A DNA stretch of 64,000 nucleotides from Rhodothermus sp. GTDB lineage: Bacteria > Bacteroidota > Rhodothermia > Rhodothermales > Rhodothermaceae. Below are positions 18,573 to 24,278 of the stretch, piece by piece. Positions within the stretch are counted from its first letter, which is position 1. The number at the start of each line of letters is the position of its first letter. The position numbers and the translations under genes are program-made. The stretch covers positions 1 to 64,000 of the forward strand of contig JAUZRN010000013.1 of the NCBI GenBank assembly GCA_030950375.1, read 5' to 3'. The notes beneath the pieces are model-generated. The model was not told the origin of the DNA. It searched no databases and saw only the letters and a program-made list of their open reading frames with translations.

Positions 18573-19088
18573 TCAGGACTTACGGGATTCCTGGAGCTGC
18601 TTGAGCGTTTCATAGACTTCTCGATCGTGGCGGGCCGGATCGACTTTTTCAAAAATGTGGGCAATGCGCCCTTCCGGATCGATCAGGAACGTGACGCGCT
18701 TGGCATATAGCCCACCCATACCCAGTACATCATAGGCTCTGGCGATCTTCTTGTCCTGGTCACTGATCAGATCGAATGGCAGGTTGTATTTAGCTTTAAA
18801 GCGTTCCTGCGTCTCCAGGTTGTCCAGGCTCACACCCAGAATGACGGCTCCCAGCGCCCGGATCTTTTCATAGGCATCACGCAAGGTGCAGGCTTCTGTG
18901 GTACAGCCAGGCGTGAACGCTTTGGGGTAGAAGTAAAGCACCACCCACTGACCGCGCAGGTCACTCAGGCGGATCGTCTTGCCACCGGTTGCCTTTGCTT
19001 CGAAGTCGGGTGCAGGTTCACCGACTTTGGGTCGATCGCTTTTGCCGAAGCCGAATAGCAGTAACATGCTCAGTAATACAGGCATCAT
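18573..19088 (-). CDS. bcp: Membrane-anchored or exported thioredoxin-dependent peroxiredoxin (Bcp/PrxQ type)
   Basis: PrxQ-type peroxiredoxins reduce hydroperoxides using an active-site Cys. The 171-residue product has [16 protein letters not shown], then [19 protein letters not shown] with the peroxidatic Cys and a second Cys five residues on, then GVSLDN and [15 protein letters not shown]. Unlike cytoplasmic Bcp, the mature domain is preceded by a hydrophobic segment ([13 protein letters not shown]), so it is probably anchored in, or exported across, the inner membrane. I start at the ATG pair 19085-19088, because the upstream frame has no sensible sequence. Confidence 0.92.
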
Positions 19089-19429
19089 GGGGAAAAGAAA
19101 GCTGGTTTTGGGGGGACGCTTATGCAAAAAGAAAGCGCTCGAGTCATAGGAGTTTCCGCGGTACAAAAAGATCGCGGGGGCGCGGTCTGGCCATGGCTGC
19201 GCGAAAGATGAAGGATTCATGTTCGGAACCGATCAACGTGGTCGCGCTGGACCTGTAGCCCGCGGATCAATTCGACAGGGGCTGTTGCTTCCTATTAAGA
19301 TTTGATGTGCATGGCAAGCCTATGGGGGGAGATGAATAAAGTTGCTGGTTTGTATGTGAATACGATTCCGATTTAGCGAAATGTGGCGCAAAGCGTTAAA
19401 TTGGGGACAAAGCTTTCCGGATTGAGGCT
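19089..19429. promoter_or_regulatory. Divergent intergenic region between the peroxiredoxin gene and recG
   Basis: These 341 bp lie between divergent genes. The part nearest recG (about 19290-19420) is AT-richer than the surroundings and likely holds the recG promoter. No small gene, palindrome or RNA was recognised. Confidence 0.4.
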
Positions 19430-21532
19430 GTGGTTGACCTGCGTGTTTTAGAGACAGCGGTACGGTACGTGGCCGGGGTGGGACCGCGTCGGGCCGAAGC
19501 GCTGGCGCGGGTTGGCGTGCACACTGTACGGGATCTGCTGCACTACTTTCCTCGGCGTTACCTGGACCGTTCGACGATCGTCCCACTCCGGCGTCTGGAC
19601 GAACGTCTGGGGGCGGTAACGGTCGTAGGGACCGTGCGCGTGGCCGGCATGGTCGAGGGCAAGGGCCGCAAACGGTTCGAGCTAATTCTGGAAGACGAAA
19701 GCGGTGGCCGTCTGAAGTGTGTCTGGTTCAACCGCCTGAACTGGGTGGCCAGGACTTTCAAGCCCGGCGATCGGGTCGCTTTTCACGGCAAAGTGCAGCG
19801 TTTCGGTTACACGTTTTCCATGACGCATCCCGATTTCGACCGGCTCGACGGCGAAGGTGCGGCGCTGGCCACCGGTCGCATCATTGCGCTGTACCCGGGC
19901 GGAAGTACGCTGGAAAAGGTCGGGCTTACCAGTCGTACGTTTCGCCGCATTCTGTACACGTTTTTTAAACAGCAGGGGGTGAGGCTTCCGGAGATCCTGC
20001 CGGAGTGGATCCGCACCCGCTATGATCTGATCGATGGTCGGGTGGCGCTGCGTGCCGTACATTTCCCGCGCAGTCAGCAGGAGCTGGCGCGTGCGCGCGA
20101 GCGGCTCAAGTTTGAGGAGCTGTTTTTTATTCAGCTCATGCTGGCCCGTACGAAGCAGATCCGGCAGGCAGTGGCCGGGCCGCGCTTTGGTCCACCGGGC
20201 GAACGTTTCCACCGTTTTCTCAACGAGATCTTGCCTTTCGAGCTGACCGGTGCGCAGCAGCGGGCACTGGACGACATCATCCGAGATACCACGTCGGGGT
20301 TGCAGATGAATCGGCTGATCCAGGGCGACGTGGGCAGTGGCAAGACGGTGGTGGCCATGGCGGCCATTTTGCATGCCGTGGACAATGGCTACCAGAGTGC
20401 CTTCATGGTGCCTACCGAGATTCTGGCTGAGCAGCACTATGCCAACATGCGTCGCTATCTGGATCCACTGGGGGTCGAGGTGCGGTTGCTGCTGGGCGGA
20501 CAGCGCAGATCGCTGCGCGAGGAAATTCTGGCTGATCTGGCCGAAGGTCGGGCGCATGTGGCCGTGGGTACCCATGCCGTGATTCAGGAGACCGTGCGGT
20601 TTCACCGGCTGGGACTGGCGATCGTGGACGAGCAGCATCGCTTTGGCGTGGTGCAACGGGCTGAACTGTTCAACAAAGGCGAAAATCCGCACATGCTGCT
20701 CATGACGGCCACGCCGATTCCGCGGTCGCTGGCCCTGACGCTCTATGGTGATCTGGATGTGTCGATCATCGATGAGCGACCGGCCGGACGCAAGCCGGTG
20801 ATCACCTGGATTCGCTCTGAAAAGCGGCGAGGAGAAGTGTATGCTTTTCTAAAGGAGCAACTCCGGCAGGGACGTCAGGCGTACGTGGTTTATCCGCTTG
20901 TGGAGGAAAGCGAGAAGATGGATCTGCAGGATGCCGAAAACGGCTATCGGCGGCTTAAGGAGCTGTTTCGACCCTATCGCGTGGACCTGCTTCACGGCCG
21001 GATGCTTCCCTATGAGAAGGAGGAGGCCATGGAGCGCTTCAAGAATGGGGAGACCGACATCCTGGTAGCCACCACGGTCATTGAAGTGGGGGTGGACGTG
21101 CCAAACGCCACGGTCATGATTATTGAACATGCCGAGCGTTTCGGGCTCAGTCAGCTCCACCAGCTCCGGGGGCGTGTCGGACGCGGGGCTGAACAGAGCT
21201 ATTGCATTCTGATGGTGGACCATCGGCGCACGGCCGAAGCCGAGACGCGCCTGCAGGTAATGGCCGAGACGGATGACGGCTTCAAGATCAGTGAGATGGA
21301 TCTGAAGCTACGAGGGGCTGGCGACTTCTTTGGCACGCGCCAGAGCGGATTGCCGGACCTGAAGATTGCCGACATCACACAGGATCAGCCTATCCTGATC
21401 AAAGCCCGCGAGGCCGCCTTTGAACTGATTCGCCGCGATCCGAATCTGGAAGCCCCGGAGCATGCTGTGCTGCGGGCCTATTATGACCGATTTTATGCCA
21501 GCCAGTCTCTGGGATTTGCCCGGGTGGGTTAA
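19430..21532 (+). CDS. recG: ATP-dependent DNA helicase RecG
   Basis: RecG remodels stalled forks and branched recombination intermediates. The 700-residue product has an N-terminal wedge/OB-fold region (YVAGVGPRRAEALARVGV, LHYFPRRYLDRS), then helicase motifs: QGDVGSGKTVVAM (Walker A), IVDEQHRFGV (DExH box), MTATPIPRSLALTLYGDLD and HQLRGRVGRG. The start is a GTG at 19430. The TAA stop overlaps, on the other strand, the stop of a remnant second tesB 3' end, so recG and tesB were probably once adjacent and convergent. Confidence 0.97.
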   Translation: MVDLRVLETAVRYVAGVGPRRAEALARVGVHTVRDLLHYFPRRYLDRSTIVPLRRLDERLGAVTVVGTVRVAGMVEGKGRKRFELILEDESGGRLKCVWFNRLNWVARTFKPGDRVAFHGKVQRFGYTFSMTHPDFDRLDGEGAALATGRIIALYPGGSTLEKVGLTSRTFRRILYTFFKQQGVRLPEILPEWIRTRYDLIDGRVALRAVHFPRSQQELARARERLKFEELFFIQLMLARTKQIRQAVAGPRFGPPGERFHRFLNEILPFELTGAQQRALDDIIRDTTSGLQMNRLIQGDVGSGKTVVAMAAILHAVDNGYQSAFMVPTEILAEQHYANMRRYLDPLGVEVRLLLGGQRRSLREEILADLAEGRAHVAVGTHAVIQETVRFHRLGLAIVDEQHRFGVVQRAELFNKGENPHMLLMTATPIPRSLALTLYGDLDVSIIDERPAGRKPVITWIRSEKRRGEVYAFLKEQLRQGRQAYVVYPLVEESEKMDLQDAENGYRRLKELFRPYRVDLLHGRMLPYEKEEAMERFKNGETDILVATTVIEVGVDVPNATVMIIEHAERFGLSQLHQLRGRVGRGAEQSYCILMVDHRRTAEAETRLQVMAETDDGFKISEMDLKLRGAGDFFGTRQSGLPDLKIADITQDQPILIKAREAAFELIRRDPNLEAPEHAVLRAYYDRFYASQSLGFARVG

Positions 21533-21563
21533 TCCGACCGGATGCGCATGAGGCCTTCCTGGA
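21528..21563. repeat. 36-bp direct repeat, left copy (recG side)
   Basis: The 36 bases starting GTTAATCCGACCGG and ending CTTCCTGGA are identical to 23414-23449. In the right copy they encode the last residues of TesB (reverse strand). The left copy begins with the last bases of recG. The two copies bracket a 1.85-kb insert. Confidence 0.95.
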
Positions 21564-21607
21564 GCACTACGTGGCATTTCGTGGCAAAGAGCAGCCGTTT
21601 GTCGGTG
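21529..21607 (-). pseudogene. Remnant of a second tesB 3' end next to recG
   Basis: Read leftward, this stretch encodes LLFATKCHVVLQEGLMRIRSD and then a stop. It aligns with the TesB C-terminus LLFAMESPVA...VVQEGLMRIRSD with an in-frame loss of about 22 codons. The last 36 bases are identical to the real tesB; the block at 21582-21605 has three mismatches in 24. It has no start and no upstream part, so it is debris, probably from duplication during insertion of the DNA between recG and tesB. Confidence 0.8.
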
Positions 21608-21802
21608 GATAGAGTTCGATGCTGTCGAATTCGCTCAGAGAGTCCCCATGTCTGTGTTGGGAGCGGGCACATTTGAAGGACTTGGTTAAAGGGGCAGGGA
21701 AGGGAGGCATTTTGGTATTGACCGAGAGGGATTTTTTTTCTTACAAGGTGTTTAAGTAAATGTGGTTTTAACAGATTCTATGGTCAACACGAAGGTTTTT
21801 GG

Positions 21803-22870
21803 ATGGGAGCTGGGCAGTGGCTATATGGATGGCTCGGAGGAGGATGGTTGGGGGGGATGTTGTTGCTATCGGCGTGTTCGTTTGTTGAGTCGGAGCAGGC
21901 TGGGCGTTTTGATTATGGGGGTGATCCGTTACCTGGGACGGAGCATGTGTTTAATTTACGTTTTTCGCCGGATGGTCGGTGGGTGGCATTGATTCGGGCG
22001 TATACGCCGGGTCGGATGGATCCGCCCAATCAGCTCTGGTTAGTGAGTCGGGATGGGCGTCAGGTTCGTTTTCTGGGGGCGGGTATAGGGAGTGCAGACT
22101 GGTCACCAGATGGAAAGCGGCTGGCTTTGAGCTACGAACCCGGGCTATGTTGTGATTCGTATGTAGTGACGTTGGATTTGGGGAGTGGTCGTGTGGAGGT
22201 TTGGACGGGAATGGACAGTTTGCTGTTGTCGCATCCGACGGCTACGTTTCCACACTGGTTTCGGGATGGGCGTCGGCTTTTGGTGTCGGTGGTGATGGAG
22301 CCGCGGGATCAGCCCTATTCGGGTGGGGCCTATGTGCTGGATTTGGTGTTTCGGAGGGCGATAGGGCCGGTGGCGCCGATGGTGGCGGCTCAGTTGGGTG
22401 GTCGGGATCGGTTTGCCGTAGGTATTATGCCGCAACCGGAAGGGGGCGTTTATCGGGAGAATGTAGTGCGTTATGAGTTTGAGACGGGGGAGTTGCGTGT
22501 GTTGACGGATTTTGGTGCGGAGGAGGCTTTTACGTTTTCGGTGGCGCCCAATCCGGTAGGGGATGAGGTGGTATTGGAGCGTCGGGTGGAGGGAGTGCCG
22601 CAGCTTTTTTTGTTGGATGGTTGGGGTCGGGTGTTGCGTCAGTTGACTGAGCGGGGGGGACACAATCCGCGATGGAGTTATGATGGGCGGGCAGTAGTGT
22701 TTTTACGGGATGTGGAGGCGGGTCCGGGTGCGCGGAATGTGCCGTTTGTGTACTGGTTGGAGTGGGGCTGGGAGGAAGTGCTTTGGCCGATGTTGCCCGA
22801 TTCGGTGCCGGTGTTTCCGGCGTTGGACACGTTGCTTGGTGATTGCCTGCTCTGTGGAAAGCTGCCGTGA
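21803..22870 (+). CDS. Lipoprotein with TolB/PD40-type beta-propeller repeats
   Basis: The 355-residue product has a signal sequence ending in a lipobox (LLSAC, Cys25), so it is probably an outer-envelope lipoprotein. PD40-like blades follow: FNLRFSPDGRWVALI near residue 50, SADWSPDGKRLAL near 98, PHWFRDGRRLLVSV near 150 and PRWSYDGRAVVFL near 293. Such propellers usually bind proteins or sugars; the partner is unknown. Codon use is unlike the neighbours, with very G/T-rich codons on this strand. Together with the flanking direct repeat this suggests recent acquisition. The nearby T/A-rich stretch at 21720-21780 may hold the promoter. Confidence 0.8.
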   Translation: MGAGQWLYGWLGGGWLGGMLLLSACSFVESEQAGRFDYGGDPLPGTEHVFNLRFSPDGRWVALIRAYTPGRMDPPNQLWLVSRDGRQVRFLGAGIGSADWSPDGKRLALSYEPGLCCDSYVVTLDLGSGRVEVWTGMDSLLLSHPTATFPHWFRDGRRLLVSVVMEPRDQPYSGGAYVLDLVFRRAIGPVAPMVAAQLGGRDRFAVGIMPQPEGGVYRENVVRYEFETGELRVLTDFGAEEAFTFSVAPNPVGDEVVLERRVEGVPQLFLLDGWGRVLRQLTERGGHNPRWSYDGRAVVFLRDVEAGPGARNVPFVYWLEWGWEEVLWPMLPDSVPVFPALDTLLGDCLLCGKLP

Positions 22871-22889
22871 AACTAAATTACGGGACGCC

Positions 22890-23410
22890 ATGGTTGGAAG
22901 CTACATGCGACGCCGGGCTGTTTCCCTGATTTTTCTGATCATTGTCTTGGGTGAAGGGTGGGCTCAGGTAACTCCTGACGATCCGCTGTTTCCTTGGCAA
23001 CGTCCATATCTTTCGGAGAGGTGAGTGCCTATAATGCGGCTGGTGAGTCGGCTCCTTCGAATCAAGTATCGACTTATGGTGCGCCGTTTAGCCCGCCATA
23101 TTCGCTGGAGGTTCTGGCTGATTCGCTACGGCTGGTACAATGGGTGCCTGAGGTGTTTGCGGTGCGTATGGTAGGCCCACAGCCGTTTACCTACAAGACG
23201 ATGCTGGAGGTAGATCTTCCGGAAGCGGTGCAGGTGCGGTTGGTTGTGTATGATATGCTGGGCCGTGAGGTGGCACGACCGGTGGAGGGGTATTATCGGG
23301 CAGGGCGGCATTGGTTGCAGATAGTTGGTTCGGGTTGGCCAGCAGGGGTCTACGTGTATCGTCTGGAGGCTGGGCGCTGGTTGCACAGCGGTACGTTTGT
23401 GCGGCAATAG
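22890..23410 (+). pseudogene. Broken gene for a secreted FN3 / type IX sorting-domain protein
   Basis: A signal peptide (RRAVSLIFLIIVLGEGWAQ) starts in one frame at 22890 and runs into a stop at 23022-23024. A second frame, open from about 22994 to 23410, begins mid-domain with VSAYNAAGESAPSNQVSTYG, the end of a fibronectin type III domain. It finishes with a type A sorting domain (FTYKTMLEVDLPEAVQV, VYDMLGREV, WPAGVYVYRLEAG). The two halves look like one secreted protein that lost its middle and its frame near 22990-23020. It shares the G/T-rich composition of the preceding lipoprotein gene. Confidence 0.75.
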
Positions 23411-23413
23411 GGA

Positions 23414-23449
23414 GTTAATCCGACCGGATGCGCATGAGGCCTTCCTGGA
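23414..23449. repeat. 36-bp direct repeat, right copy (tesB 3' end)
   Basis: Identical to 21528-21563. Here the bases are the functional 3' end of tesB (reverse strand, ending MRIRSD and a stop). The copy begins 3 nt after the stop of the broken sorting-domain gene, which makes it a sharp right edge for the insert. Confidence 0.95.
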
Positions 23450-24278
23450 CGACGGCGGCTATGAGCGTGCCGTCACGCTGAAAGAAGAGGCCACGGTTCA
23501 GGCCGCGGGCGTGGGCGGCGACAGGGCTTTCCATGGCAAACAGCAGCCATTCGTCGGCGCGAAAGGGACGGTAAAACCACATGGCATGGTCCAGACTTGC
23601 CGCCTGCACATGCGGCTGCAGGAACGACAGGCCATGCGGCAACATGGCAGTGCCCATGAATCCAAAATCCGACGCATAGGCCAGCACGCTCTGGTGCAGC
23701 GCGGGATCGTCGGGTAGGGTGCCGGCGGCGCGAATCCAGGCATGACGCCGCGGCGGGCGCTTTTCGGGAAAAAGCAGGTGGACGGGTTCGACTGGCCGTA
23801 TTTCAATGGGGCGCTCGTGCAGCAGGAACGGGCGAAGCACTTCCGGGACTTGCTCCGCCAGCTGGCGCCGCAATTCCGCTTCGGAGATCAGCTCTTCGGG
23901 AGGCGGTACTTCGGGCATGGGATCCTGATGCTCCACACCGGACTCTTCGATCTGGAACGAAGCAGACAGGTTGAAAATCGGGCGACCATGCTGGATGGCC
24001 GTGACGCGACGCGTGGTAAAGCTCCGTCCATCACGTAACCGTTCAACCATATAAACAATAGGAGCCGAGGGATCGCCGGGCAGGATGAAGTAGGCATGCA
24101 GGGAATGAATCTGCCGCTCTGGAGGTACCGTGTAGGCGGCCGCGCGCAGTGCCTGGCCGAGCACCTGACCGCCAAACACCGTGGGACTGCCAATATCGCG
24201 GCTTGGCCCGCGGAAGATGTTTGCCTCGATGCGCTCCAGATTGAGCAAATGCAACAGGTGATCAATCGGTTCACTCAT
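23415..24278 (-). CDS. tesB: Acyl-CoA thioesterase II
   Basis: TesB hydrolyses acyl-CoA to free fatty acid and CoA in the cytoplasm. The 287-residue length and double hot-dog layout match the family. Seen are FRGPSRDIGSPTVFGGQVLGQALRAA (short motif FGGQVLGQAL) near residue 33, LHAYFILPGDPSAPIVY, the C-terminal LAYASDFGFMGTAMLPHG with the catalytic Asp, and SLDHAMWFYRPFRADEW. It starts 17 nt after the SDR gene on the same strand, so the two are likely co-transcribed in lipid metabolism. Confidence 0.95.
   Translation of the reverse strand: MSEPIDHLLHLLNLERIEANIFRGPSRDIGSPTVFGGQVLGQALRAAAYTVPPERQIHSLHAYFILPGDPSAPIVYMVERLRDGRSFTTRRVTAIQHGRPIFNLSASFQIEESGVEHQDPMPEVPPPEELISEAELRRQLAEQVPEVLRPFLLHERPIEIRPVEPVHLLFPEKRPPRRHAWIRAAGTLPDDPALHQSVLAYASDFGFMGTAMLPHGLSFLQPHVQAASLDHAMWFYRPFRADEWLLFAMESPVAAHARGLNRGLFFQRDGTLIAAVVQEGLMRIRSD

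Follow-up and report, generated by a model that had tools for sequence, protein, structure and literature searches.

A PD40 lipoprotein gene and its decayed subtilase-like partner between recG and tesB of Rhodothermus: a likely insertion with long duplication of the tesB end

Integrative elements that enter at the 3′ ends of genes duplicate the gene end and leave the target gene intact. A different mode of gene entry is insertion with long target duplication, which in Helicobacter pylori is frequently found with restriction-modification genes (Nobusato et al. 2000, Gene 259:99, as described in PMC1643837 and PMC3031569). Of small variable segments, 10–18% are flanked by direct repeats able to drive their loss, and homologous or illegitimate recombination has been proposed (PMC2884548).

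Here, we compare with these systems an insert lying between recG and tesB. Rhodothermus are hot-spring bacteria; the window, i.e., the whole stretch of 64,000 nucleotides that was analysed, belongs to a Rhodothermus genome of 3.03 Mb (G000), which was compared with six relatives of the same genus (G001–G006). The layout of the locus is as follows.

19430–21532, + strand: recG (Pfam RecG wedge, DEAD, Helicase_C and RecG domain 3)
21528–21563, no strand assigned: left copy of the 36-bp repeat, the tesB 3′ end joined to recG (exact repeat search)
21564–21608, no strand assigned: diverged rest of the tesB tail duplicate, from which 66 nt (22 codons) are missing (alignment; the junction in G003 is at the same position)
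21609–21802, + strand: insert leader, with a promoter-like TTGACC from 21718 and a T run, partly common to other PD40 copies (174-nt alignment to G003)
21803–22870, + strand: intact PD40 beta-propeller lipoprotein gene, 355 aa (Pfam PD40, E = 7e-9)
22890–23024, + strand: remaining first 44 codons of a gene for a secreted subtilase-like protein, broken off by a frameshift and stop (tblastn with the 776-aa protein of G002)
23018–23410, + strand: surviving last ~129 codons of the subtilase-like gene, with the T9SS C-terminal sorting domain (tblastn; TIGR04183, 23.7 bits)
23414–23449, no strand assigned: right copy of the 36-bp repeat, the true tesB 3′ end (exact repeat search)
23414–23560, − strand: the tesB stretch that was probably duplicated, ~147 nt in G000 (alignment with G003, where it is 155 bp including a few recG bases)
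23415–24278, − strand: tesB, an acyl-CoA thioesterase gene, intact (Pfam Acyl_CoA_thio, E = 4.5e-44)

The direct repeat is exact over 36 nt, which is far above chance expectation. A third match is absent from the window even when up to three mismatches are allowed, and none arose in 100 dinucleotide shuffles. The first-pass annotation had asked whether the repeat occurs elsewhere; a search of the whole genome returns significant matches at these two sites only. The left copy overlaps the recG stop codon. Past its 36 nt, the alignment with tesB shows a gap of exactly 66 nt, followed by a tesB-like tail of ~45 nt. Within this left tail, 16 of 48 aligned positions differ from the genome’s own tesB, whereas all 35 positions of the outer block agree. 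The 36 identical bases and the diverged tail with its in-frame deletion of about 22 codons, both reported in the first-pass annotation, are confirmed, and its reading that this tail decays beside an unchanged outer block is supported. On the left, then, recG is followed by an old tesB tail, and on the right stands tesB with its true end. No inverted repeat pair is found at the insert ends in G000, and an Rfam search matched neither the repeat nor the leader to a known RNA element.

All seven genomes of the genus have recG and tesB in convergent orientation, and the recG orthologues of the six relatives are 90–97% identical in amino acid and 78–88% in nucleotide sequence. In G001 and G006, there is no DNA at all between the two genes, the stop codons of which overlap. 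The site is thus empty in two relatives rather than filled in all, and the earlier suggestion that recG and tesB were once convergent and nearly touching is supported. At the G003 boundary are a PD40 gene 90% identical in protein to that of G000, a fragment of the sorting-domain gene also found in G000, and a duplicate tail of tesB. The boundaries of G002, G004 and G005 hold other DNA, unrelated to the insert (L017:1608-2107 and L019:1529-3462 for G002 and G004). A DUF2283 reading frame was found there by Pfam in G002 and G004, and the same sequence is visible in G005; G002 has in addition a DUF4258 gene, and G004 an HNH-like gene and a nested IS1595-type transposase. It follows that this boundary of converging genes took in DNA at least two times independently. 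Five relatives further removed carry tesB with no recG inside 1.5 kb of it, so the empty ancestral state is deduced from within the genus.

The original extent of the duplication is best seen in G003. There, the repeat of the tesB end still spans 155 bp, of which 3 differ between the copies, and it extends a few bases into the recG end. The 36-bp repeat of G000 would therefore be the remnant of a target duplication of ~150 bp. G000 and G003 share the positions of both junctions, and their inserts align over 174 nt at 74% identity in a stretch that leads out of the tesB tail, across the leader and on towards PD40. Given the shared junctions and the homologous leader, the two inserts are taken to descend from a single insertion event. 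This homologous insert supports the first-pass proposal that the arrival of DNA duplicated the end of tesB.

The two copies have not simply diverged since insertion. Were that so, one would expect the left copy of G000 to resemble that of G003; instead, the copies group by species. Over the outer 35 nt, the two copies of one genome are identical, and 4 positions differ between G000 and G003, in every left–right combination. Near the junction, at which conversion should fade, the alignment of G000 and G003 shows a C-to-T change shared by both left copies and absent from both right copies. The pattern points to recombination (gene conversion) within each species as what has kept the copies alike. 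The 66-nt deletion in G000 leaves the outer 36 bp as the sole unbroken partner, which fits identity stopping there. Alternatively, the 36-bp identity of G000 could stem from allelic recombination with a G006-like recG end, since the last 150 nt of recG (21380–21532) are unusually close to G006: 10% of third positions differ, against 21–22% over the last 300–450 nt. This stretch is a possible recombination tract ending at the repeat. On the other side of recG, the bcp-like peroxiredoxin gene (18573–19220) has a pS of 0.74 relative to the sister G006, where neighbouring genes have 0.29–0.44, which suggests replacement of this gene in one lineage.

The PD40 protein has a predicted signal peptide with a lipobox-like cysteine, and Cys25 is invariant in ten homologues. 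Its dN/dS of 0.12–0.32 indicates a gene under purifying selection. The protein shows a weak profile match to TolB structures and scores 39 bits in the TolB equivalog model, the cut-off of which is 343. A motif similar to TTGACC is seen by eye upstream of PD40 in G002. Third positions of the PD40 gene (21803–22870) are 84% G or T and 6% C, compared with 43–66% G or T in other window genes; the bias is common to G003 and weaker in G002. PADLOC models match neither PD40 nor the subtilase-like protein, so the pair is not a known anti-phage defence system. No PD40 gene was found in viral contigs and named genome contigs by a pattern method that detects only close relatives.

Within the genus, the subtilase-like gene is intact only in G002, where it encodes 776 aa; the copy in G005 is cut by contig ends. 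The G002 protein combines a subtilase (S8) domain (E = 2.8e-14) with a sorting tail of the T9SS type. The latter scores 30.4 bits in the TIGR04183 type A sorting domain model and the window fragment 23.7 bits, both above the cut-off of 23. At the catalytic Asp/His/Ser motifs, the four intact homologues that were aligned read IG.YS, EM.GI and TAAAASI/TAASASI or close to these, EM.GI standing without the usual HGT; these readings come from an alignment, short of full structural checks, and the Ser position is the least certain. As the motifs are altered in all four, the protein is probably not an active protease. In G000, residues 45–647 are deleted and there is a frameshift; in G003, the gene is nearly all lost, by a different deletion.

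Outside the recG-tesB boundary, the pair is found at two other places in G002 and G004, one next to a glycoside-hydrolase-like gene, at a site that is empty in G001, and the other beside tRNA-Arg. The subtilase-like gene is lost from copy A of G004, and copy B is truncated after ~49 codons in both genomes. At the other copies in G002, no flank-to-flank direct repeat is found, only chance inverted matches of 10–11 nt. Thus, the long duplication belongs to the recG-tesB event and is not a mechanism carried by the pair. No genome compared carries the pair behind this leader at another site, so neither the donor-side end nor the mode of joining can be read. Two side observations concern L060: a second PD40 copy (L060:5937-7530) lies just downstream of tRNA-Arg(cct), and a 37-bp sequence at the truncation point of the partner gene recurs elsewhere in the same genome.

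In the wider Rhodothermales, PD40 and the subtilase-like gene adjoin each other in G012, G028, G035 and G064, of which G028 and G064 have PD40 in duplicate; G037 has PD40 with an apparent remnant of the subtilase-like gene. The conserved pair is as follows.

L059:5714-9122, L083:4075-7895, L085:3572-8299 and L082:2422-7473: PD40 lipoprotein gene paired with the gene of a subtilase-like T9SS cargo whose catalytic motifs are altered; recurrent loss affects the cargo gene, and PD40 is kept or duplicated

PD40 often stands alone, without its partner; conversely, none of the 60 genomes searched has a near-complete subtilase-like homologue without PD40 beside it. PD40 may be kept either for its own use or for protection against the subtilase-like partner. 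The repeated loss of the secreted partner, the constant retention and frequent duplication of PD40, and the lack of a near-complete secreted partner without PD40 would fit an effector-and-protector pair. In such a case, PD40 and an apparently dead subtilase-like T9SS cargo would act between neighbouring Rhodothermales cells, spreading and decaying like a selfish unit; we think this quite unlikely.

We propose the following history. In an ancestor of the Rhodothermus species, recG and tesB would have been convergent and touching. A pair encoding the PD40 lipoprotein and the T9SS-exported subtilase-like protein would have been inserted between them, and in the same event ~150 bp of the tesB 3′ end duplicated, the old tail staying with recG on the left and the whole tesB on the right. 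As no recombinase gene is in the insert, the molecular step was most likely an illegitimate integration of incoming linear DNA, by end-joining or template switch. Later recombination between the copies would have homogenised ~155 bp in G003 and the outer 36 bp only in G000, the left copy of which was presumably shortened by the 66-nt deletion. The subtilase-like gene would have decayed by deletion in both carriers, with PD40 retained under purifying selection. In the sister G006, the insert may have been excised by repeat recombination or may never have been received. Taken together, we consider insertion with a ~150-bp tesB duplication, later homogenisation and cargo decay to be the likely account, and each step of the first-pass interpretation that had been inferred now has comparative evidence behind it. 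What that interpretation did not anticipate is the broken state of a formerly larger two-gene unit, its possible movement between species, and the unrelated DNA at this boundary in three further relatives.

The later history of the insert is where this account divides. The recG tree is (G001,((G002,G004,G005),(G003,(G000,G006)))), with support of 0.997–1.0 at the relevant nodes. Under vertical descent, the insert would have been gained before the G003 split and cleanly lost in G006, an outcome obtainable by recombination between the repeats. A variant, differing in later history only, has a single entry; homologous recombination in recG and tesB would then have carried the insert from one of the G000 and G003 lineages to the other, in which case G006 need never have carried it. 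The four-fold site difference of PD40 between G000 and G003 is 0.29, below the 0.42–0.54 of nine backbone genes and near the 0.21–0.38 that separates G000 from G006 for most genes. Against such exchange, divergence between G000 and G003 is not lowered in the adjacent recG and tesB, the G/T bias at PD40 third positions implies a lower ceiling on synonymous change, and PD40 also appears slow between G002 and G004. That ceiling is probably insufficient to explain the low PD40 divergence, and the divergence of the insert, its ~74% identical leader included, fits later between-species exchange better than simple vertical descent from one insertion. We regard exchange as a serious, if still tentative, alternative, its probability overlapping that of the main account.

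Other explanations would replace the proposed account. A site-specific integrative element could have entered at the tesB 3′ end, providing a replacement end and later losing its integrase, with the 36 bp as the old attachment core. A duplicated gene 3′ end beside a whole target is the usual mark of gene-end integration, and the same two junctions are found in two species. However, neither carrier has a recombinase or a remnant of one, the other copies of the pair lie in different surroundings with no flanking repeat, and both repeat copies in each genome carry that genome’s own variants, with no element-borne variant; we hold this reading to be doubtful. More remote is retention of the repeat for a function, e.g., a transcription stop between convergent genes. 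The outer block is indeed nearly unchanged among G000, G006 and G002 (0–1 differences), but it codes for the TesB C-terminus, which accounts for conservation of the right copy. In addition, both G003 copies differ from G000 at the same four positions and the region has no Rfam match, so that a functional repeat seems very unlikely. Since several genomes have draft status and those of G005 and G006 were binned from metagenomes, an assembly artefact might be suspected; this has a next to negligible probability, given that two separate assemblies with different sequences show the same structure.

Known classes of mobile DNA were also considered as candidates and rejected. Neither the G000 nor the G003 insert contains a transposase or an integrase, and Pfam shows no recombinase remnant in G000. 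An insertion sequence or transposon is set aside for want of a transposase and terminal inverted repeats, and an integrase-driven genomic island for want of a recombinase gene in either insert. Plasmid and phage searches gave no match that would indicate such an origin.

How, then, does the locus compare with the systems described above? In its sequence features, it matches insertion with long target duplication: the site is empty in G001 and G006, the duplication is well over 20 bp, and the insert has no transposase or integrase. As that system is presented in the two papers cited for it, the likeness lies in a transposase-free unit with a long direct target duplication, seen against an empty relative. 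Unlike the Helicobacter pylori cases as presented there, the Rhodothermus unit brings in genes for a PD40 lipoprotein and a subtilase-like protein exported by the T9SS rather than the restriction-modification genes frequent there, and the duplication, in contrast with that system, appears to have been homogenised within species and, in one of the carriers, worn down to 36 bp. The locus likewise qualifies as a repeat-flanked variable segment in the sense of PMC2884548, where the repeats are mostly below 30 bp, whereas the original Rhodothermus duplication was probably ~150 bp. With integrative elements at gene 3′ ends it shares a duplicated gene end and an intact target gene; it differs in having no integrase and in repeats that vary with the host species, not with the element. 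The inserted protein has PD40 repeats like TolB and other PD40 beta-propellers; unlike TolB, it is a predicted lipoprotein paired with a subtilase-like gene and falls far under the equivalog cut-off.

The pair itself, in which the secreted member is repeatedly lost and the lipoprotein partner retained, is one for which we found no earlier description in Rhodothermales. Related species that are empty, filled and eroded at one site make a clean example of a pair without mobility genes entering a chromosome and duplicating a long target, and the case also indicates that the flanking copies can be kept alike within each species after entry. Genes are known to enter chromosomes by insertion with long target duplication, although uncommonly, and the Rhodothermus case is a fresh example of it with an unusual cargo.
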